Below are positions 27,885-39,934 of a stretch of 64,000 nt of DNA, piece after piece; within the stretch, counting starts at the first letter, position 1, and the number at the start of each line of letters is the position of its first letter. This stretch comes from Slackia isoflavoniconvertens (GTDB lineage Bacteria > Actinomycetota > Coriobacteriia > Coriobacteriales > Eggerthellaceae). A program made the translations under genes and the position numbers. The stretch lies in assembly GCF_003725955.1 (NCBI RefSeq), contig NZ_QIBZ01000002.1, positions 124,001 to 188,000 of the forward strand, given 5' to 3'. The notes beneath the pieces were generated by a model that worked only from the letters and a program-made list of their open reading frames with translations, did no database searches and was not told the origin of the DNA.

Positions 27885-30800
27885 CTATTCGCTTCTCAAC
27901 GCTTCGACCGGGTCTTTCTTCGCGGCGGCGCTTGAAGGGATGAGGCCTGCCAAGAATGTGAGCAACACGCTTATGCCGACCAGGGCAATTGCGGCCTGCC
28001 ACGGCAGGATCGCGACGTTTTCCACGTCAAATAACGAGTACACAATCGCGTTCGCGGGAATGCATGCCAGAGCCGTAAGCCCGATGCCGATAACGCCTGC
28101 CGCGAAACCGACGATGATGGTTTCGGCGTTGAATACACGGCTGATATCGCCCTTGCTCGCACCAATCGAGCGTAAAATGCCAATTTCTTTCTTGCGCTCA
28201 AGCACGCTAATGTAGGTGATGATGCCAATCATGATAGAACTCACCACAAGCGAAATCGCGACGAACGCTACCAATACATAGCTGATCATATTCACGATGG
28301 TAGTCACGCTGCTCATGAGTGCGCCCACGATGTCGGTATAGTTCACGACTTTATCTTCGTCGCCAGTGGCGTTCATTTTGTCGTTGTAACCATCGAGGAT
28401 GTCAATCACGCTTTGCTTGCTTTCGAAATCCTTCGGGTAAATGTCGATGCTCGCTGGCTTCGCGTAGTCGGCCCAGCCGAACTTCTTCATGTTGTTATCG
28501 TAACTGCTCTGCTCGGTCGACATGAGGCTCGCCATGAGCTCGGAAAGCTCCTGCTCGTTCATATTCATTTGGAATGCGTCGGCAAAAGCGCTCTCATCGA
28601 TGCCCATGGCTTTTGACATATTTGCCGAAAGGGTGGACATATAGGTGGTCATCGCGGAGGAGACTTGGTTTTGGATCGCTGTTCCATATTGCGTCATGAC
28701 CTGCGTCATTGCTGTTTGCATATACGACTGCATAGCGACGGAAAGCTGCTCTTGCAGCTGCTGCGAAATAGCTGCAGAAAGTGCGGGTAGAAGCTGCGCT
28801 TGTAGTTGCTGTGAAAACTGCTCTTGAAGCTGCCGTTGGATTTGTTCGCTCACTCCGCTGAAATCGATGCTGTCGGCAATGGCCTTTTGCATGGCGGCTT
28901 TCGTGACGGGGTCTGCGAGATATGCCTCAACTGCCGCTTTTTGATCGGTGGCGTATTCGGGGTGGTCGCCCTTGATTTGTTCCTGGAGCCAAGAGGGGTA
29001 CGCGCCCATGATATTCATGATGCCCTGGGTTAGAACATCGGTTTTGATATCGGGCTGGGCGCCATCGAAGTTGAGCTTGATATTGCTGAAGTCGAGGTTT
29101 AACTGGCTCATGTCAATCTTGCTCGGGTCGATTTGAATGCCCGAAGCATCGAAGGCTGGCATGTTGGACAAGTCGATATTGGCACTCGACAAATCCATGC
29201 TGCTCGAGAGGTCGGCGTTCGAGAGGCCTGCGGCCAGTGCGCTTTCGTCGAACGTGAACGCGCTCTGCAGCTTTTCGCCGTCAATCGTGAATAGGCTCGA
29301 CATATCGAACCCATTGCCGTCTTTCGATTCGTCTTCTTCTTCGGCGAACGATTTGCCTGTAATCACATTGGTTGCGGGGTCTGCCTGCTGGTCTTTTACG
29401 ATTTGTTTGTCGCCCGCCTCATCAATGAGGTGGTTGATCAAATCGTTCGAGTAATACAGGCCCGTTGAAAGCGAAGTAATCTTCTCGCCCTCTTTCGGCT
29501 TTACAACGCCGCATACCTTAAGCGTTTCGCCATGGTCGACCAAGCTTTTCATGTAGTCGGCATCGCCGCTCTTGTCTTTCCAAACCTGGTAATCGCTGTC
29601 GTACTGATAGAAATCGGCGCCATTGACGAGCTTGAACTCCACATTCATGAGGTCGTCGTAGTCGAGGTCGAGCGTGTTGTCGGGTACCTGCACTTCTTCC
29701 TCGTTGGCAAACTCGCGCACCATTTCTTCGAGTTCCTTATGGTCGCGCAAGCCCATGGAGTACAGCATGAAATCGCTCACGTTGCCGTTCGGTGTGAGCA
29801 CGGCTACGACCTCGTCGTAATTTTCAGGCCAATGGCCTGCGACGACGTCGTATTGGTTATCGACCTGGCTCATGTTCGCAGGCAGCTTGTAGAAAATGTT
29901 CGTGCTCATCATCGACGACATGATGCCGTTGCTCGATGCGCCTAATCCCACGCTCGCGAACGATTTATCGGGGTTTACCTGGTGTATGCCGTCGTCGGTG
30001 TTTGAATTGAAAATCTGCGGAGTGACGCTATAGCCGTATTCGATTGAATTCACGTAGCTATCGATGTCGGTGCCGTCGTTGTCGAAATACTCTTTCAGCG
30101 ATGCGAGGTCGTTGCTTCCGATGCTCGAGAACATGCCTGTGATCATTTTCGATTCATGCACCGGCTTGCCCGAATCGCTCGAAGCGGTCGCATCGTTTGC
30201 CTGCGAGTTTGTGCCTGTGTTTGAATCGTCTTCTGCGCCGCCCATGCCCATCGTCATCATGCTGGTCATGTCGAAGCCCTGGTCTTGGATTTGCAGTGGG
30301 TATTCCGAAAGCGTGTTTTCTTCGACGTTGGCGATGTATTGGTTCACGCCGTTCGCGAGTGACAAAATGGCCGCGATGCCAATAATGCCGATGCTGCCCG
30401 CGAAGGCGGTCATGAGTGTGCGGCCTTTTTTCGTGAGCAGGTTCTTGAATGAAAGCGAAAGCGCTGTGAAAAATGACATGCTTGTTTGACGTGCGGCTTT
30501 GGCTTCGCGGCGTGGCTCATTGCTTGCGTTGGGGTCAAAGGGTCGCGTGTCGCTTTTGATAACGCCGTCGGCGAGGTTCACGATGCGTGTAGCATATTGT
30601 TCGGCCAGCTCGGGGTTATGCGTCACCATGATTACCAGGCGATCGCCGGCGATTTCGGTGAGCAAATCCATGATTTGCACGCTCGTTTTCGAGTCGAGGG
30701 CGCCGGTGGGTTCGTCGGCCAGGATAATTTCAGGCTCGTTGACCAGGGCGCGCGCAATGGCGACGCGCTGCATTTGGCCGCCAGAAAGTTGGCTTGGCTT

Positions 30801-31211
30801 TTTGTTGATATGCTCGCGAAGGCCTACCCGCTCGAGCGCCGCGCATGCTCGCTCGTGTCGCTCCGCACGAGACACGCCCGAAAGCGTGAGGGCCAATTCG
30901 ACGTTTTCCAGAATGGTTTGATGGGGAATGAGGTTGTATGCCTGGAAGACGAAGCCGATGCGATTGTTTCGGTAAGTGTCCCAGTCTCGATCGCGGTATT
31001 GTTTGGTGGAGATGCCATCGATGAGCAAGTCGCCCGAATCGTAATGGTCGAGGCCTCCGATGATGTTGAGCATGGTCGTTTTTCCCGAACCCGAAGGGCC
31101 TAAAATGGCGACGAATTCGTTATCGCGAAATGCGAGCGACACATGGTCGAGCGCGACCTGCGTGAAGCTGGCCGTGGTGTATGACTTGCATACGTCTTTG
31201 AGTTGTAGCAT
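27885..31211 (-). CDS. MacB-type ABC transporter: fused ATPase and FtsX permease with large extracellular domain
   Basis: 1108 residues. The N-terminal ATPase has Walker A GPSGSGKTT (~38-46), signature LSGGQMQRVAIARAL and ADEPTGALDS. TM1 (~265-290) begins the FtsX/MacB permease; a very long outer segment (~290-960) and three C-terminal helices (ISYVLVAFVAISLVVSS onward) with the FtsX motif ERKKEIGILRSIGASKGDI complete it. The outer segment holds an MacB-like core, a run of short D/N-L-S repeats (~635-690) and a Gln-rich predicted coiled coil (~780-870, LQEQFSQQLQAQL). Such transporters act mechanically on envelope proteins, peptides or lipids. The ATPase-permease fusion and the coiled coil are unusual. 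Single gene, transcribed toward the origin. Confidence 0.9.
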   Translation of the reverse strand: MLQLKDVCKSYTTASFTQVALDHVSLAFRDNEFVAILGPSGSGKTTMLNIIGGLDHYDSGDLLIDGISTKQYRDRDWDTYRNNRIGFVFQAYNLIPHQTILENVELALTLSGVSRAERHERACAALERVGLREHINKKPSQLSGGQMQRVAIARALVNEPEIILADEPTGALDSKTSVQIMDLLTEIAGDRLVIMVTHNPELAEQYATRIVNLADGVIKSDTRPFDPNASNEPRREAKAARQTSMSFFTALSLSFKNLLTKKGRTLMTAFAGSIGIIGIAAILSLANGVNQYIANVEENTLSEYPLQIQDQGFDMTSMMTMGMGGAEDDSNTGTNSQANDATASSDSGKPVHESKMITGMFSSIGSNDLASLKEYFDNDGTDIDSYVNSIEYGYSVTPQIFNSNTDDGIHQVNPDKSFASVGLGASSNGIMSSMMSTNIFYKLPANMSQVDNQYDVVAGHWPENYDEVVAVLTPNGNVSDFMLYSMGLRDHKELEEMVREFANEEEVQVPDNTLDLDYDDLMNVEFKLVNGADFYQYDSDYQVWKDKSGDADYMKSLVDHGETLKVCGVVKPKEGEKITSLSTGLYYSNDLINHLIDEAGDKQIVKDQQADPATNVITGKSFAEEEDESKDGNGFDMSSLFTIDGEKLQSAFTFDESALAAGLSNADLSSSMDLSSANIDLSNMPAFDASGIQIDPSKIDMSQLNLDFSNIKLNFDGAQPDIKTDVLTQGIMNIMGAYPSWLQEQIKGDHPEYATDQKAAVEAYLADPVTKAAMQKAIADSIDFSGVSEQIQRQLQEQFSQQLQAQLLPALSAAISQQLQEQLSVAMQSYMQTAMTQVMTQYGTAIQNQVSSAMTTYMSTLSANMSKAMGIDESAFADAFQMNMNEQELSELMASLMSTEQSSYDNNMKKFGWADYAKPASIDIYPKDFESKQSVIDILDGYNDKMNATGDEDKVVNYTDIVGALMSSVTTIVNMISYVLVAFVAISLVVSSIMIGIITYISVLERKKEIGILRSIGASKGDISRVFNAETIIVGFAAGVIGIGLTALACIPANAIVYSLFDVENVAILPWQAAIALVGISVLLTFLAGLIPSSAAAKKDPVEALRSE

Positions 31212-31437
31212 GCAATGCCTTTCGAAAATGCGAAAATAATTGAGCTTCTAAAGCATTATGCCCCAATCGCCGCGGCTCGCCTTGCTTCGTTGCCCAGCCG
31301 CAAAAGAAAACGCCATGATTGAGCGGGGCGTGATCGATGAAGCTTCACTCTGGTCGCAATCGCTGTTATTTATGGCCAACATCTGTTTGCTTGGCAAAAG
31401 CGAGGCGTACCTTTCTCCCGCGTGCGCGAAAGACATG

Positions 31438-31444
31438 CTAGAAT
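31438..31444 (+). promoter_or_regulatory. Extended -10 of tRNA-Arg(CCT)
   Basis: ATGCTAGAAT reads as TGnTAGAAT, an extended -10 that needs no good -35, 16 bases before the tRNA. The rest of 31212-31460 shows no supported gene. Confidence 0.55.
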
Positions 31445-31460
31445 AACAAGGTTTTCAAAT

Positions 31461-31536
31461 GCCTCCGTAGCTCAGGGGATAGAGCACCGCTCTCCTAAAG
31501 CGGGTGTCGACGGTTCGAATCCGCCCGGGGGCACCA
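31461..31536 (+). tRNA. tRNA-Arg (anticodon CCT)
   Basis: Acceptor GCCTCCG with CGGGGGC (one wobble), anticodon loop CTCCTAA, T-loop GGTTCGAATCC, CCA encoded. Decodes AGG. Confidence 0.95.
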
Positions 31537-31547
31537 TTGATTTCGTT

Positions 31548-31571
31548 CGGCGTCGGCAACGGCGCCGTTTT
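31548..31571 (+). terminator. Terminator after tRNA-Arg(CCT)
   Basis: CGGCG, 10-base loop, CGCCG, then TTTT. Confidence 0.55.
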
Positions 31572-31789
31572 GCGTATTGGTGGTTCGCGGCAAGGGGAAT
31601 GCATGCTCGCCACTGGCGGCTATACGAATAGTAATGACATGCGATTCCTGCCGCGCATTCTTAGACATATTCGTATTCGCTCGATCATATCGAGCGCGTG
31701 TGCTTTTGTGGCCTAGGTTCAGGATTGGTGCCTCGGCTTCGCTTCGGTGAAGCGATTCTCGAAGTCGGAATAAAATCCGTCCCAATATG

Positions 31790-31814
31790 GATAAATAGGA
31801 ATTACCTATTTATC
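31790..31814. promoter_or_regulatory. Palindrome upstream of the adhesin promoter
   Basis: Perfect 10-bp arms GATAAATAGG/CCTATTTATC around AATTA, ending 8 bases before the -35. Placed where an activator or repressor would bind. The gene-free stretch 31537-32080 otherwise holds the promoter and leader described next. Confidence 0.5.
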
Positions 31815-31822
31815 GGCGTCTA

Positions 31823-31851
31823 TTGACGTTCGGGGGGGGGTGCGTTACCAT
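31823..31851 (+). promoter_or_regulatory. Candidate phase-variable promoter with G9 tract in the spacer
   Basis: TTGACG (31823-31828), exactly 17 bases, TACCAT (31846-31851). Nine consecutive G (31832-31840) lie in the spacer, so gain or loss of one G changes -35/-10 spacing. The next gene is the giant surface adhesin. Confidence 0.6.
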
Positions 31852-32031
31852 TCCGTGCGAATAAATGGCGCAGAACAAGGAAGAAGGCATCGCTGGCCAT
31901 GCGTACGTCGAGTGAATGATGCTTCGATTCTCTGATTGTGTGTTCATGCACGCAGCGATAGGCGTTTTCTGCGCAAAATCCAATCGTATTCAACTTTATA
32001 TGCAAAAGGCTCGCGATATGCGAGTCGTATC

Positions 32032-32058
32032 GCCCGCATTCGTTTTTGCGGGCTTTTT
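32032..32058 (+). terminator. Terminator in the adhesin leader (possible attenuator)
   Basis: GCCCGCA-TTCGTTTT-TGCGGGC stem followed by TTTTT, ending 22 bases before the adhesin start and about 175 bases after the predicted transcription start. A small hairpin CTCGC-GATAT-GCGAG (32010-32024) precedes it. Confidence 0.65.
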
Positions 32059-32080
32059 GCGTTGCTCTTAAGGGGGGCAT

Positions 32081-35000
32081 ATGTTTGAGAAGTTGAAAAA
32101 ACCACGTTGTCTGGTAGCAATCGCCCTGGCGTGCATGCTTATGTCGTGGCAGTCGCTTACGCCGTTTACGCAAGCCATTGCGGCCAATATTGGTGAAGCC
32201 GCGACTCAGACGAGCGCCTCCGACGAGCAATCGACGCAGGATGGCCAAAACGCTTCTGCCACGCAGGCCGCACAAGCCGTTGAGGGCAATAGCGCGGTGG
32301 ATGCCGCGAACAAGGATCTCGCAGCTGTCAGCGGCGACAACGTTGAAGACGCTCCTAGCAACATCGCCATGGTTGGCGAACCTGCTTCAAACACCTCGGA
32401 CGCACAGCACGACGAAGCTAGCACTCCTTCAGTTCAAAGTGAAGAATATAACGGAAATAGCGATTACCGCGAGGTAATTTCGGGTATTAAGGTGAATGTT
32501 TATAAAGACGACGGATGCTCGGAAGAGCTCGCTTCGGATGACGTCATCGCCCCCGATGCGCATTTGTATGGCAAAGTGTTCATTGATTTCGCGACGAAAG
32601 AGATGCCGACACTCGCGCAGCCGAACATTAAGTACACCTTCCCGAATAATGTGAAGTTCGAAAACAACGGCCCCCAAACGCTTTATGACGGCGATAACCG
32701 GGTTGCGGGCAGCTGGTTCATTCAAGATGGTGTCGTTTATCTGCACTACAACGAGGATTGGCTGAGAAAAGAGCACTCTAGCGTGATCGCTCACGTCAGT
32801 TTCGAGTTCGTCATGAATGCCGACGATACGGGTGATGGCAAGAAGGTGACAGTTAATTTCCCCGGCGTTGCGACATCGGTGGTTATTAAAACCAAGGATG
32901 GCAGTGTTTCCAGCAATAAGTTCGGCGCCGATCCCAATAAAGAAGGGGAGATGCCGAAATTCGACGCATCCGACAACTCCTATACCTGGACGGTGAAGGT
33001 TTCCCCATCGGCGACTGCGACTAACTTAAAGATTGAGGATGTCATTGGATCGAACCTCGATTTTGTCACTGGCTCCTTCAGGCTGATTGATAAAAGTGGC
33101 AACCCGGTGCCGGGAAAATGCGATGCAACCATCAACGGGCAGAGCGCGACCATCGAGCTCGGCACGCTTTCCAAAGGTGATTACTACGTTCAATACAAAA
33201 CCACGGTGAAGCAGTCGGCGCTCGATGCGCTCAAAGATGGTCAGGAGGTTTCCAACGTCGGCAATACGGCGAAGTGGATTTGGGGCAGCACGGGCGAGAA
33301 CAACGGCACCTCTGGCCTGAAAGATCCTGAGAAAGTTAAGTATTCCATGGTGCAGAAATCCGTTGCGACGGATAGCACCAACGACAATATCATGTGGGCT
33401 GTCAAGCTGAACTCGGGCAGCCTCAAGGCCGATATGTCGAAGTACCAGTTCAGCGATATCTTGAGTGGTGACCAAAAATTCAAAGAAGGCACGAAGTACG
33501 TGGTGAACGACGCTTCTGGCAAGCAGGTGGCGTCGGGTGCTGTGGACCCGAATAGCTCGGAACTCAATTTCACGCTTCCCGACGGCTTGGGCAAACAAGA
33601 GCTCACTGTTAGCTATACCACCACAATGAGCAACGTCGATTCCATGAAGGCGGTCTCAAATACTTCGAAGGTGACCCCGCCGAACGACAAAGGCATGGCT
33701 GGCGAAGGCAGCGCGAGCTACCAGCCGACTGATGGGCGCACGTATGTGACCAAGCGCCTCGTCGATGCAAGCACCGCCGAAAACGACGGCAAGGCTTCTT
33801 GGGAATCGACCGTGAAATTCTCCTCCATGGATGCGGATACCGATCCGAGTACGGTCGTGTTTGTCGATAGCATCGAAAAAAAACCCAATTTCGAGCACAT
33901 GAAGTTCAGCGATATCGCGGTTAAGACTGATGGCGGCACTGAGCTAACAAAGGACATCGATTATTTTGTTGATGGTGGGGAATACAGCAACATCACTATT
34001 CGATTCAAAAGCACTGATGAGGTTAAGAGCCTCATCGGCACGCACGATGTTGTTGTGTCGTATGTCACGACGTGCAGCGGCGCGAACGGTACCTACATCA
34101 ACACCTCGTCGGTCAAGATCGGCAACGTTGACAAGGGGAGTGCGTCCGATTCCTTCGTGATTGATAAAGAAATTGCTCCCGCTGTGTCGAAAAAGTCGAC
34201 TGGTGATGCCCAATGGAAGGCCGACTATACCTGGCCCGATGGTTCCAAGGGCGCCTGGATTGCTAATTGGGAAGTTCATGTGAACTGCGATGAACCGAAT
34301 ACCTGGACTCATAATGCCGCATCCGATCTTAAGGGCGACAATGTTGTGGTGAAAGACAAGCTTGACGAGGGAATGTCATATGTGAGCGGGTCTTCTCGCT
34401 ATTGGAAGTACGGCTCTGAAGGCTACAAGACCGCTGGCGATTGGCCGGAACTTCACGCGGAGCCTTCTGATTCGAACGGCGCCGTGGTGTTCACCATCCC
34501 AACGCGGGACATGGTGAATGAGGCGGGCTCTTGGAAGGGCTACGTAAAGCTAACCTATCAGACCGCTATCAAGCAGTCCGCTGTCGATGCCGGTGTATCT
34601 AAAGATTTCTTCAATACCGCCGAGGCTCGTGCGGGCGAGACGCACTTCCCTGAAGGAACGGGTAAAGTTACCATCAACAACAAAGTACTTGACAAGCAGG
34701 CCGTTCGCGCGAGTGACAACTCGCATGTTAAGTACACCATCACGGTAAACCCGAACGCGCAGACGCTCGGCGCCTCCGGCTCGTTGACGTTGGTTGACAC
34801 CATGAACGCAGGTGCGATTTTCACCAATGGTACCCTCAAAGTTACCGACAAGGATGGCAAAGAGGTTACCGACGGCGTTTCCTACACGCTGAAGAATCAG
34901 CCGAATTCCGACGGCAGCACCTCGACGGTGCTTACGCTTACGGTTCCAGACGCTCAAGCGCTCACGGTAACGTACGACGTTGCCCCCCAAGGCGCTCTTG

Positions 35001-38000
35001 GCACTGAAGTGCAAATTGAAAACAACGTGAGCATGCAAGGCTTTGCTTCGGCATCCGCGGAGCATAGTCAAAAGTGGGCGGTTCAGAAGTCCAACGCCGG
35101 CACCGATGCCACGAGCTACGGCATTACCGTCATCAAAACCGATGAGACGGGCAAGGAGCCCCTCGAGGGCGCCGAATTCACTCTTTACCAGATCGACCTT
35201 GATAAATCCACGAAAGATAACCTTGTGAGGTCGAAGGTTGCGATCGTCGGCGATAACCCGAAGACAACGGGCAAGAACGGCATTGCCAAGTTCGGCGACA
35301 AGGAACACCCGCTCGACGCTGCCACGCTTTATTGCTACGAGGAGACTAAGGCTCCCGCAGGTTATAAGATTTCCAATACCGCGCCGACCTACGTGATGTT
35401 TAGTGGTACGAGCGAACAGGTCAAGGCCGACTATGCTGCGGCGTTCGCGAAGGCGCAGTTGCTTGGCATTACGCCCAACAGTGGCACGACGTTCAGCGTT
35501 TTTGATGAGAAGGACACCGAACCGACTGGCTCTGTCGAGCTCAACGTGGTGAAGCGAGTTAACGGCGCTGACCCCGTCAACGACGAGCGTTTCGAGTTCT
35601 CTGTTGCGGGCGAGAATGATGCTTCTAAGGCGAAGATGCCCGAGCACGACTCGGCGGCAACGATTGGAGCGAATGCCGCTTCCTTCGGTGCAATCAACTT
35701 CACCAAGGAAGACATAGGGAAGACCTACACCTATGCCATTCACGAGACTTCATCTGCACCCGATGATGGCAACGTATGGACCATGGCGGGCGATGTGGTC
35801 GCGACGGTTAAGGTCGGAACGGCGACCGATGCGGCGCCGACGGTCATCCCCGTGGCGGTCGAATACAGCAACGCGAACGCCGATGGCACCGCCGCGCTGT
35901 TCAACAATACTTGGATTGCTCCCAATCCTGCGGCCGCGCAACTTAAGGTCCATAAGACCGTTGAGGCGCCAGCTGGCTCAAATGTGAGCGCCGATGAGCA
36001 GTTCACCTTCGAGCTTTACAAAGCCGATGCTCAAGGGAAGAAAACCGAAGAGAAAGTTGGTGGTGCTGTTTCCGTCAAAAACGGTGAGACCGCCAGTTTC
36101 GCCGACCTTTCGTTCGATACTGCGGGTACTTATAACTACGTTATTCACGAGACTGGCCATAACGGAAACGGCTGGACGCCTGCTGCCGATGTGAACGTTC
36201 AAGTCGTTGTGAAGAAGTCCGGCGACGGCAAATCGTTCGTCATAGACAGCATCACCTACGACGGCGAGAATACTGACTCGGCGAATTTCGTTGATATGTA
36301 TAAGGCTGAAAAGACCAGCGTGTCTCTCGCTGCGAAGAAAACCCTTGAGGGGGCGGTACTTGCTGCCAATCAGTTTTCCTTCCAGCTGAAGGACGCGAAC
36401 GGCAATATCCTGCAAACCAAGTCTAATGATACCGAGGGCAATGTGGCGTTTGACGCGATTGAATACACCGCCCCTGGCACCTATGAGTATGGAATTTGCG
36501 AGTCTAAAGGCGCAGAGCTCGGCGTTGTCTACGATGAGACCGAGCACGCCGCGAAGGTCGTTGTGACCGACGACGGCCAAGGTCAGCTTCACGCCGCCGT
36601 AAGTTACGATGGCGATGGGACCAACGCCCCTGCATTCAAGAACACCTACGCCAAGCCTGCGCCGACCTCCACGTCGTTTACCGCACAGGTGAAAAAGGTG
36701 CTCGATGGCGGCCGCGATCTCAAGGCTGATGAGTTCACGTTTGTTTTGAAGAAGGGCGATAAAGAAGTCTCGCGTACCACGAACGCCGCTGATGGCTCGG
36801 TGGTTTTCAAGGATGTTGCCATTAATTCCGTCTCTGATGGCGGCGAGTATACTATTTCCGAAGTCGAAGGCACCGATAGCTCAATTGAATACTCCAGCCA
36901 GGTCGTGAAGGTCAATGTTGACGTCGCCGAGAAAGACGGCAAACTTGTCGCGACCGTTACGTATGGCGACAGCAAGTCGACCGAAGCTCAAACCATCACC
37001 AATACCTTCAGGCCTGTCGCCACGGCGGCAACGGTAGAAGCGTCAAAGACGCTCTCTGGCCGTGCCCTCAAAGCGGGGGAGTTCACCTTCCAACTCAAGA
37101 GTGGGGACGAGGTGGTTGCCACTGCGACCAACGATGTCGATGGAAAGGTCGTTTTCCCAGATGACGCGCTTACTTACAACGTTGTCGGCGAACACGACTA
37201 CGTTCTTTCCGAGATTGCGAAGGATGAAGCCGACGCTAAGGGCGTGACCTATGACACTAAACAGGTCAAGGTGCATGTTTCCGTGACGCAGGATTCGACC
37301 ACGGGCGAGTTTTCCGCGAAAACCACCTACGATGGTTCCGAGACTGTTCCTGCCTTTGCGAATACGTACGCAGCCATTGGCTCCGCGACTTTAAACGTCG
37401 TGAAGACCGTAAACGGCCAGGTGCCTGGTGCCGATGCGAGATTCGATTTCAAGCTCGAGGCGAAGACGCCCGGCGCGCCGATGCCTGAGAAGAACATCGT
37501 GCAGACCGTGGGTGGCGAACCTGTCTCCTTCGGTGGCATCGAGTTCGGCCTGGCCGATGCCGGCAAGACTTACGAGTACGTCATCGCCGAGACCACGCCT
37601 GCGACCACTGGTTGGACGATGGCTCAGCCCGTTACCGCCAAGGTGACCGTTGGTGTCGACAACGGCGACGGCACGCTCGGGGCAAACTCGGTCGAATACT
37701 CCTGTGCCGCCGCCGATGACTCGGCAGCGCTGTTCGACAACAAATACGAGCAGGCTTCGGGAGTATTTCAGCTTGGCCCGGTGAAGACGGTCAACGGCGG
37801 CGCTCCCAAGGCTGGTGAGACGTTCGGTTTCAGCGCGACTGCAGAGGGTACAAACGCCTCCGACGCCCCGAAGCTCGAGAATGTGACCACCGACGCCGAT
37901 GGCAAGGCGGTTTTTGCTGTGGTTGAGCTTTCCGACAAGGACGCCGGAGAGATTTATACCTATCGCATCCATGAAGAAGGTGATCTCGGCGAGGGCTGGG

Positions 38001-38338
38001 TGAAGGCGCCCGACGTGGTTGCTACCGTGAAAGTTTTGAAGCGCAATGCCGACAACAGGCTTGTGGCAACGGTCATCTACAAGCAGGATGCCGAAGGGGC
38101 CCAGCCCTACGAGGGAGCGGCTCGGTTCGACAACAAGTATGAGGAGCAGCCGCCGACGCCTGGTGACCCTCAGACGCCTGGGGACTCTCGCACCCCCGAT
38201 GTGCCGCACGGTGGGTTCTTCGCCAAGACGAGCGACCCCACCCACATGCTCGCTCAGGGAATATTCGGTCTCGCTTCCGTTGTTGCTGCTGTTGCATGTG
38301 CCGTTTCTTTGCGCCGTCTGCGTAAGAGGAGCGAATAG
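32081..38338 (+). CDS. Giant cell-surface adhesin with SpaA/Cna and FctA-like isopeptide repeats
   Basis: 2085 residues. A signal peptide (1-34, basic start, hydrophobic core, cut near QAIA-AN) is followed by a Ser/Thr/Ala/Gln-rich stretch. Several Ig-like adhesin modules (~130-1000) show repeated VSYTT/TYQTAIKQSA patterns. A SpaA/Cna-B domain (~1012-1110) has the isopeptide Lys in VIKTDETG and the EETKAPAGY motif. Seven FctA-like repeats start near 1150, 1284, 1411, 1529, 1647, 1767 and 1893, each with an early K-(T/V/K)-(V/L/N) and mostly a late NTY/NKY Asn, the pattern of Lys-Asn isopeptide bonds. A Pro/Thr linker, FAKTSD, a membrane segment and RRLRKRSE end it. FAKTSD stands where LPXTG would be. 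ATG 32081 follows AAGGGGGG. Probably a stalk-like ligand-binding protein. Confidence 0.88.
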   Translation: MFEKLKKPRCLVAIALACMLMSWQSLTPFTQAIAANIGEAATQTSASDEQSTQDGQNASATQAAQAVEGNSAVDAANKDLAAVSGDNVEDAPSNIAMVGEPASNTSDAQHDEASTPSVQSEEYNGNSDYREVISGIKVNVYKDDGCSEELASDDVIAPDAHLYGKVFIDFATKEMPTLAQPNIKYTFPNNVKFENNGPQTLYDGDNRVAGSWFIQDGVVYLHYNEDWLRKEHSSVIAHVSFEFVMNADDTGDGKKVTVNFPGVATSVVIKTKDGSVSSNKFGADPNKEGEMPKFDASDNSYTWTVKVSPSATATNLKIEDVIGSNLDFVTGSFRLIDKSGNPVPGKCDATINGQSATIELGTLSKGDYYVQYKTTVKQSALDALKDGQEVSNVGNTAKWIWGSTGENNGTSGLKDPEKVKYSMVQKSVATDSTNDNIMWAVKLNSGSLKADMSKYQFSDILSGDQKFKEGTKYVVNDASGKQVASGAVDPNSSELNFTLPDGLGKQELTVSYTTTMSNVDSMKAVSNTSKVTPPNDKGMAGEGSASYQPTDGRTYVTKRLVDASTAENDGKASWESTVKFSSMDADTDPSTVVFVDSIEKKPNFEHMKFSDIAVKTDGGTELTKDIDYFVDGGEYSNITIRFKSTDEVKSLIGTHDVVVSYVTTCSGANGTYINTSSVKIGNVDKGSASDSFVIDKEIAPAVSKKSTGDAQWKADYTWPDGSKGAWIANWEVHVNCDEPNTWTHNAASDLKGDNVVVKDKLDEGMSYVSGSSRYWKYGSEGYKTAGDWPELHAEPSDSNGAVVFTIPTRDMVNEAGSWKGYVKLTYQTAIKQSAVDAGVSKDFFNTAEARAGETHFPEGTGKVTINNKVLDKQAVRASDNSHVKYTITVNPNAQTLGASGSLTLVDTMNAGAIFTNGTLKVTDKDGKEVTDGVSYTLKNQPNSDGSTSTVLTLTVPDAQALTVTYDVAPQGALGTEVQIENNVSMQGFASASAEHSQKWAVQKSNAGTDATSYGITVIKTDETGKEPLEGAEFTLYQIDLDKSTKDNLVRSKVAIVGDNPKTTGKNGIAKFGDKEHPLDAATLYCYEETKAPAGYKISNTAPTYVMFSGTSEQVKADYAAAFAKAQLLGITPNSGTTFSVFDEKDTEPTGSVELNVVKRVNGADPVNDERFEFSVAGENDASKAKMPEHDSAATIGANAASFGAINFTKEDIGKTYTYAIHETSSAPDDGNVWTMAGDVVATVKVGTATDAAPTVIPVAVEYSNANADGTAALFNNTWIAPNPAAAQLKVHKTVEAPAGSNVSADEQFTFELYKADAQGKKTEEKVGGAVSVKNGETASFADLSFDTAGTYNYVIHETGHNGNGWTPAADVNVQVVVKKSGDGKSFVIDSITYDGENTDSANFVDMYKAEKTSVSLAAKKTLEGAVLAANQFSFQLKDANGNILQTKSNDTEGNVAFDAIEYTAPGTYEYGICESKGAELGVVYDETEHAAKVVVTDDGQGQLHAAVSYDGDGTNAPAFKNTYAKPAPTSTSFTAQVKKVLDGGRDLKADEFTFVLKKGDKEVSRTTNAADGSVVFKDVAINSVSDGGEYTISEVEGTDSSIEYSSQVVKVNVDVAEKDGKLVATVTYGDSKSTEAQTITNTFRPVATAATVEASKTLSGRALKAGEFTFQLKSGDEVVATATNDVDGKVVFPDDALTYNVVGEHDYVLSEIAKDEADAKGVTYDTKQVKVHVSVTQDSTTGEFSAKTTYDGSETVPAFANTYAAIGSATLNVVKTVNGQVPGADARFDFKLEAKTPGAPMPEKNIVQTVGGEPVSFGGIEFGLADAGKTYEYVIAETTPATTGWTMAQPVTAKVTVGVDNGDGTLGANSVEYSCAAADDSAALFDNKYEQASGVFQLGPVKTVNGGAPKAGETFGFSATAEGTNASDAPKLENVTTDADGKAVFAVVELSDKDAGEIYTYRIHEEGDLGEGWVKAPDVVATVKVLKRNADNRLVATVIYKQDAEGAQPYEGAARFDNKYEEQPPTPGDPQTPGDSRTPDVPHGGFFAKTSDPTHMLAQGIFGLASVVAAVACAVSLRRLRKRSE

Positions 38339-39727: not shown

Positions 39728-39734
39728 TTCATTC

Positions 39735-39897
39735 GAACGATAGAGGCGCGGGTACGATGGGTCTTGGGGAAGTCGGCGGGCATTGATCCCAAAGCGAGGC
39801 AAACCCGCCGAATTCGCCTTGCCGGGCGCGGCGCGCGAATGGGTTTGCGGGAAACACTCGCAAGACTGTCTGCGAAATCGCAGGTGCGCTATCTTGC
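39735..39897 (+). ncRNA. Lysine riboswitch (L box)
   Basis: Conserved L-box landmarks in order: GATAGAGGCGCG at the 5' side of P1, CCCAAAGCGAGGC in the core, an ACTGTCTG segment, and the closing GCGCTATCTTG. They match the B. subtilis lysC leader landmarks GATAGAGGTGCG, GCCGAAGC and GGCTATCTCG. GATAG (39739) pairs with CTATC (39889) to close P1. It lies upstream of lysA and before a terminator, so lysine would stop transcription of the lysine/DAP genes. Confidence 0.9.
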
Positions 39898-39934
39898 TGT
39901 GAAATGTTTTGCGCTGCCGCTGGCCGCGCATGCG

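Follow-up and report, generated by a model that had tools for sequence, protein, structure and literature searches.

Phase variation classically affects genes for surface structures, polysaccharides and defence. In Neisseria, porA varies in phase through a tract in its promoter, and in Bordetella the phase-varying fimbriae are transcribed from the activator-dependent poly-C promoters of the fim genes. The length of a homopolymeric promoter tract also sets the transcription of opc in Neisseria (PMC3960869). In Haemophilus influenzae, TA repeats within the -35/-10 spacer of hif alter the distance between the hexamers and the fimbriae phase-vary (as cited in PMC9187656). In Bifidobacterium breve, studied by maximum depth sequencing, the slippage of a G tract controls sortase-anchored pili (PMC9187656). 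A defence system, BREX, phase-varies through a homopolymeric tract in its methyltransferase gene (PMC6326788).

Our analysis concerns a 64-kb stretch of the genome of Slackia isoflavoniconvertens (hereafter, the window), in which a run of nine G lies between the two hexamers of a promoter-like site upstream of a gene for a very large surface protein. The features of this locus are the following:

31790-31814, no strand assigned: inverted repeat GATAAATAGG-aatta-CCTATTTATC (10-bp arms, 5-nt loop), from the sequence; possible regulator site
31823-31828, forward strand: -35 element TTGACG, from the sequence
31832-31840, forward strand: G9 tract within the 17-nt promoter spacer, a predicted slippage site, from the sequence together with the family and order class
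31846-31851, forward strand: -10 element TACCAT, from the sequence
31852-32080, forward strand: leader of 229 nt, from the -10 element to the adhesin start codon, from the sequence
32032-32053, forward strand: hairpin GCCCGC..GCGGGC of terminator-like type within the leader, with TTTTT after it, from folding; possible attenuator
32070-32077, forward strand: Shine-Dalgarno-like AAGGGGGG upstream of the adhesin ATG, from the sequence
32081-38338, forward strand: 2085-aa surface protein with signal peptide, SpaA, seven FctA (Spy0128-like) stretches and sortase-like C-terminus FAKTSD

As in promoters of the porA, opc and hif type, the homopolymer is located within the -35/-10 spacer at near-optimal spacing and, as with SSR phase-variable promoters, the product is surface-exposed, judging by its sequence. 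With opc and porA the locus has in common that the promoter of a surface-protein gene contains a G/C homopolymer; however, those two are Gram-negative outer-membrane proteins that have been tested experimentally, whereas the Slackia gene, known from sequence alone, codes for a Gram-positive sortase-type protein and carries a terminator in its leader. The likeness to hif is a repeat that alters the hexamer distance, although in hif this is a dinucleotide repeat in a divergent promoter. As for fim, the similarity lies in a repeat in or near a promoter and in fimbriae, and the difference in the activator-dependent poly-C. Bifidobacterium breve is, like Slackia, an Actinomycetota gut commensal with a sortase-anchored product, but its tract is intragenic and switches the reading frame, whereas that of Slackia occupies a promoter spacer. 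The mechanism is known from porA, opc and hif; the lineage and the extent look new. The first-pass annotation knew of no such switch in Coriobacteriia and, in agreement with it, our search, confined to the open literature, found no paper on poly-G promoter switches in this group.

The geometry described in that annotation, with TTGACG and TACCAT exactly 17 bases apart and nine of these bases forming a G run, is confirmed in the sequence, where the spacer (31829-31845) reads TTC-G9-TGCGT. On both strands of the segment from 30500 to 33500, where chance predicts 2.3 sigma-70-like matches, TTGACG-17-TACCAT is the sole one, and TACCAT agrees with the -10 consensus at only four of six positions. 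Taken alone, the call of an adhesin promoter proves little. Since a single sigma-70-like match over 3 kb does not exceed chance expectation, the comparison with other genomes had to decide. In the window, no G/C run other than this tract exceeds six bases, and shuffling predicts 0.32 runs of G9; 0.74 TTGAC/TANNNT sites with the spacing of the adhesin promoter are expected, and we estimate that G9 and the promoter pair would coincide by chance in one 29-bp site with a probability of ~1e-4 or less.

It could nonetheless be imagined that an intergenic G run simply happens to lie between unrelated hexamers and that there is no promoter at all, as the chance-level frequency of the hexamers alone and the few family matches without a sensible downstream gene would allow. 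We searched other genomes for the pattern TTGA-N1-12-G8-N1-12-TANNNT, using the reversed pattern as control. The family (138 genomes) contained 69 matches versus 10 for the control and the order (395 genomes) 148 versus 22, compared with 24 versus 15 in the rest of the phylum (about 360 genomes). Within Actinomycetota, the enrichment of the pattern appears largely confined to the order. After collapsing, 101 of 132 sites had spacers of 15-20 nt, against 47 expected from the geometry of the pattern (p about 1e-21). The positions that the pattern leaves free lean towards the sigma-70 consensus in the -35 element (C at position 5 in 65/101 sites, A at position 6 in 51/101) and at position 3 of the -10 element, where the consensus T occurs in 49/101; positions 4 and 5 of the -10 element have no consensus lean. 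The reversed-pattern control, the clustering of spacers, the free consensus positions and the enrichment of downstream genes presented below all argue against a fortuitous arrangement, which we regard as highly improbable. As judged by these measures, the order-wide sites are promoters, and G runs in their spacers are much commoner than chance.

Similar sites occur, at least, in many host-associated Bacilli, Clostridia, Treponema and Saccharibacteria, as found in a scan of named genomes that had no control of its own. The poly-G spacer device is probably widespread beyond Coriobacteriales. By pattern matching, this architecture is special neither to the adhesin gene nor to its lineage, recurring across the order and, among the matches listed, in other host-associated bacteria. 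We dropped the idea of a specificity to Coriobacteriia, as similar sites are present in many other phyla among the matches listed. Among the matches listed in the named-genome scan (loci L217-L296), some genomes were matched on two contigs.

The genes downstream of the family sites are enriched in signal peptides and sortase signals. A signal peptide was detected in the first downstream ORF of 21/38 non-redundant family sites versus 17/146 background ORFs (p 6e-8) and a sortase-type C-terminus in 12/38 versus 4/146 (p 1e-6), both tests being simple heuristics and the background set one that may include spurious ORFs. On contig 70 of one genome (G084, L129-L134), six TTGAAAA..G10-11..TATNNT promoters each precede a paralogous surface protein with a LAKTGD anchor. 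Transporters and regulators are among the other targets, the class not being exclusive to surface proteins, and a few of the family matches lack a sensible gene downstream. At the Slackia locus, the product fits the surface adhesin that the first-pass annotation had named as the target: it is adhesin-like in its 2085 aa, signal peptide, SpaA and seven FctA stretches (E=2e-90), and its C-terminus, FAKTSD-hydrophobic-RRLRKRSE, resembles a sortase signal. No ortholog of the leader or of the full-length adhesin was found in 60 relatives, and a search for the adhesin in the named-genome contig collection gave no match. A paralog on contig C8 of the same genome has no G/C run of six or more within C8:1-14000.

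Members of the class found elsewhere differ in tract length between species while their flanks are near-identical. Two Gordonibacter-like genomes (G114/G115) differ over ~300 nt by one substitution and by G10 versus G11; two other ortholog pairs have G10 versus G9 (G129/G130) and G10 versus G11 (G101/G104), and the six paralogous surface-protein promoters of G084 contain 10, 10, 10, 11, 11 and 10 G. The promoter of a sipW-like signal peptidase in Slackia, TTGAC-G9-..TATNCT, is kept in two species with diverged flanks; two further sipW orthologs have G9 and G10 upstream, with no recognisable TTGA/TANNNT pair, and in a fifth the run is broken, G5-C-G4 (upstream regions L338-L342), which may represent a locked version. 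These data bear on another reading, in which the poly-G would be a spacer of fixed structure, whether stiff or A-form DNA or the target of a binding factor, set to give a certain promoter strength and not hypermutable in vivo. Such a role would suit the predominance of G9 and G10 (49 and 43 of the 132 sites), the maintenance of G9-G10 upstream of sipW in four Slackia species and the modal spacer of 19 nt, in which the -10 element adjoins the tract. Yet it sits badly with one-G differences between orthologs or paralogs whose flanks are otherwise conserved and with the sipW ortholog that is taken to work without an unbroken run. Moreover, the same genomes carry coding tracts of the same length in frame, for which slippage is the only common reason. 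We consider the fixed spacer very unlikely.

Upstream of the promoter, the first-pass annotation had noted a perfect 10-bp palindrome. Its position and its perfect arms hold, but the element is actually an inverted repeat with two 10-bp arms separated by a 5-nt loop. It ends 8 nt before the -35 element, is unique in the genome and has no counterpart in any of eight Markov-simulated windows, and it is a possible, putative regulator site. As the motif of a regulon it was discarded, this copy and one site with two mismatches being no more than the control count. We also weighed an invertible promoter or another switch based on this repeat, which the perfect arms and a weak pair of 10-nt repeats enclosing the promoter (31674-31683 / 31854-31863, 90% identical) might suggest. 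However, the strong repeat, with its 5-nt loop, lies wholly upstream rather than on both sides of the promoter, the pair that does enclose it has short, imperfect arms, and the ORFs of the window that were scanned, a part of the total, include no recombinase. We rejected an inverton on these grounds and find this kind of switch barely conceivable.

The leader deserves closer attention. With 229 nt, it is longer than most of those in relatives (median 78.5 nt), and it contains a terminator-like hairpin, absent from the first-pass annotation, that has a folding energy of -16.9 kcal/mol (z -3.7; 0/200 shuffles as stable) and ends 27 nt upstream of the adhesin ATG. The same rule detected no such hairpin in any of the 46 family leaders scanned. 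Given the strength of this hairpin and its singularity among the family leaders, attenuation or a short leader transcript becomes the main rival explanation, and it could coexist with spacing control. As the main switch, it would involve a constitutive promoter, a short RNA ended at 32053 and read-through by antitermination, the length of the G tract being of minor importance. Besides the stability of the GCCCGC-GCGGGC-TTTTT hairpin and its proximity to the start codon, competing pairings within the leader (31972-31984 with 32038-32050; 31868-31875 with 31967-31974) and the lack of a further promoter-like site between hairpin and adhesin gene speak in its favour. By contrast, the fold of the whole leader is ordinary (z -1.5), and an Rfam scan of 31200-32400 returned only a tRNA and its spurious antisense match, no riboswitch or leader RNA family. 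None of the 60 relatives has the adhesin leader for a covariation analysis, and attenuation leaves both the G9 in the spacer and the order-wide class unexplained. We judge it unlikely as the main switch. Further along the window, a lysine riboswitch (39733-39899) precedes genes for a lysA-type decarboxylase, DHDPS, DapB and DapH, an ordinary lysine/DAP operon.

Phase variation by slipped-strand changes in promoter spacing is, in our opinion, very probably the best explanation for the G9 of the adhesin promoter. The sigma-70-type promoter containing this tract would start the leader of the sortase-anchored FctA-repeat protein. Slipped-strand mispairing during replication would add or remove G and so change the distance between the -35 and -10 elements, from 16 nt with G8 to 17 nt with G9 (the assembled state, close to optimal), 18 nt with G10 and 19 nt with G11. 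Such changes would reversibly switch or grade adhesin transcription and generate a mixed population. G9 with its 17-nt spacing is predicted to be, probably, an active promoter. We infer the use of the promoter, a high mutation rate of the tract in this strain and the control of output by spacing. The idea that tract length shifts the spacing and phase-varies the adhesin, already advanced from the first inspection, gains support from the order-wide class, its spacing and consensus, the enrichment in products, the one-G differences and the excess of G9 runs in the genome. Because of the terminator in the leader, promoter spacing may not be the sole control, and the hairpin may add a second, attenuation-type one.

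The excess of G9 concerns the whole genome of this strain (2.25 Mb, 53 contigs), which has eight G/C runs of seven, two of eight, seven of nine and one of ten; under a 4-fold decay per base, the number of length-9 runs has p about 6e-7. Several of these tracts are in frame within genes. A gene for an LPXTG-anchored protein has G9 at codon 157 (C3:198531-198539; L056), one for a secreted protein with ChW repeats has G10 at codon 134 (C19:36075-36084; L061), and a Wzt-like ABC transporter gene adjoining polysaccharide genes has G8 (C14:57224-57231; L059). In brxA (Pfam BrxA, E=9.5e-43), which has brxB and brxC downstream of it, G9 is found at codon 9 (C9:90533-90541; L058:7534-7542), whereas the known BREX tract is in the methyltransferase gene; this BREX system is predicted to be phase-variable. 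The gain or loss of one base in the tract truncates the product of each of these four genes. The remaining tracts lie between genes or at their ends. As in a phasome, the genome contains more long homopolymers than its composition predicts, several of them within surface, sugar and defence genes.

We think it likely that Coriobacteriales possess a phasome that would combine poly-G promoter spacers, preferentially upstream of sortase-anchored or secreted proteins, with tracts lying in frame within genes for surface proteins, polysaccharide export and BREX defence, the adhesin being one member and its leader terminator a second layer. If so, gut Coriobacteriia (Slackia, Gordonibacter and relatives) would diversify their surfaces by a stochastic switch of the kind found in pathogens such as Neisseria. 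Within a single strain, cells would then differ in adhesion, immune recognition and phage sensitivity, which would confound strain-level comparisons. The order-wide list of sites provides ready targets.

Not all poly-G tracts in Slackia are located in promoters or surface genes. In Slackia heliotrinireducens (G009, L185), the G10 and G9 tracts of two neighbouring ORFs, which by eye resemble phage genes, are ~410 bp apart; a PHROG search of these ORFs gave no match. In three Slackia species (L192, L209, L213), G9 is preceded by a shared short sequence resembling a leader, NTGCTG.ACCTCGGA.T; in two of them this element adjoins a gene with a 22-residue protein ending. In two genomes (G002 and G006), all tracts of at least G9 are on the reverse strand as assembled, with 0 on the forward strand.
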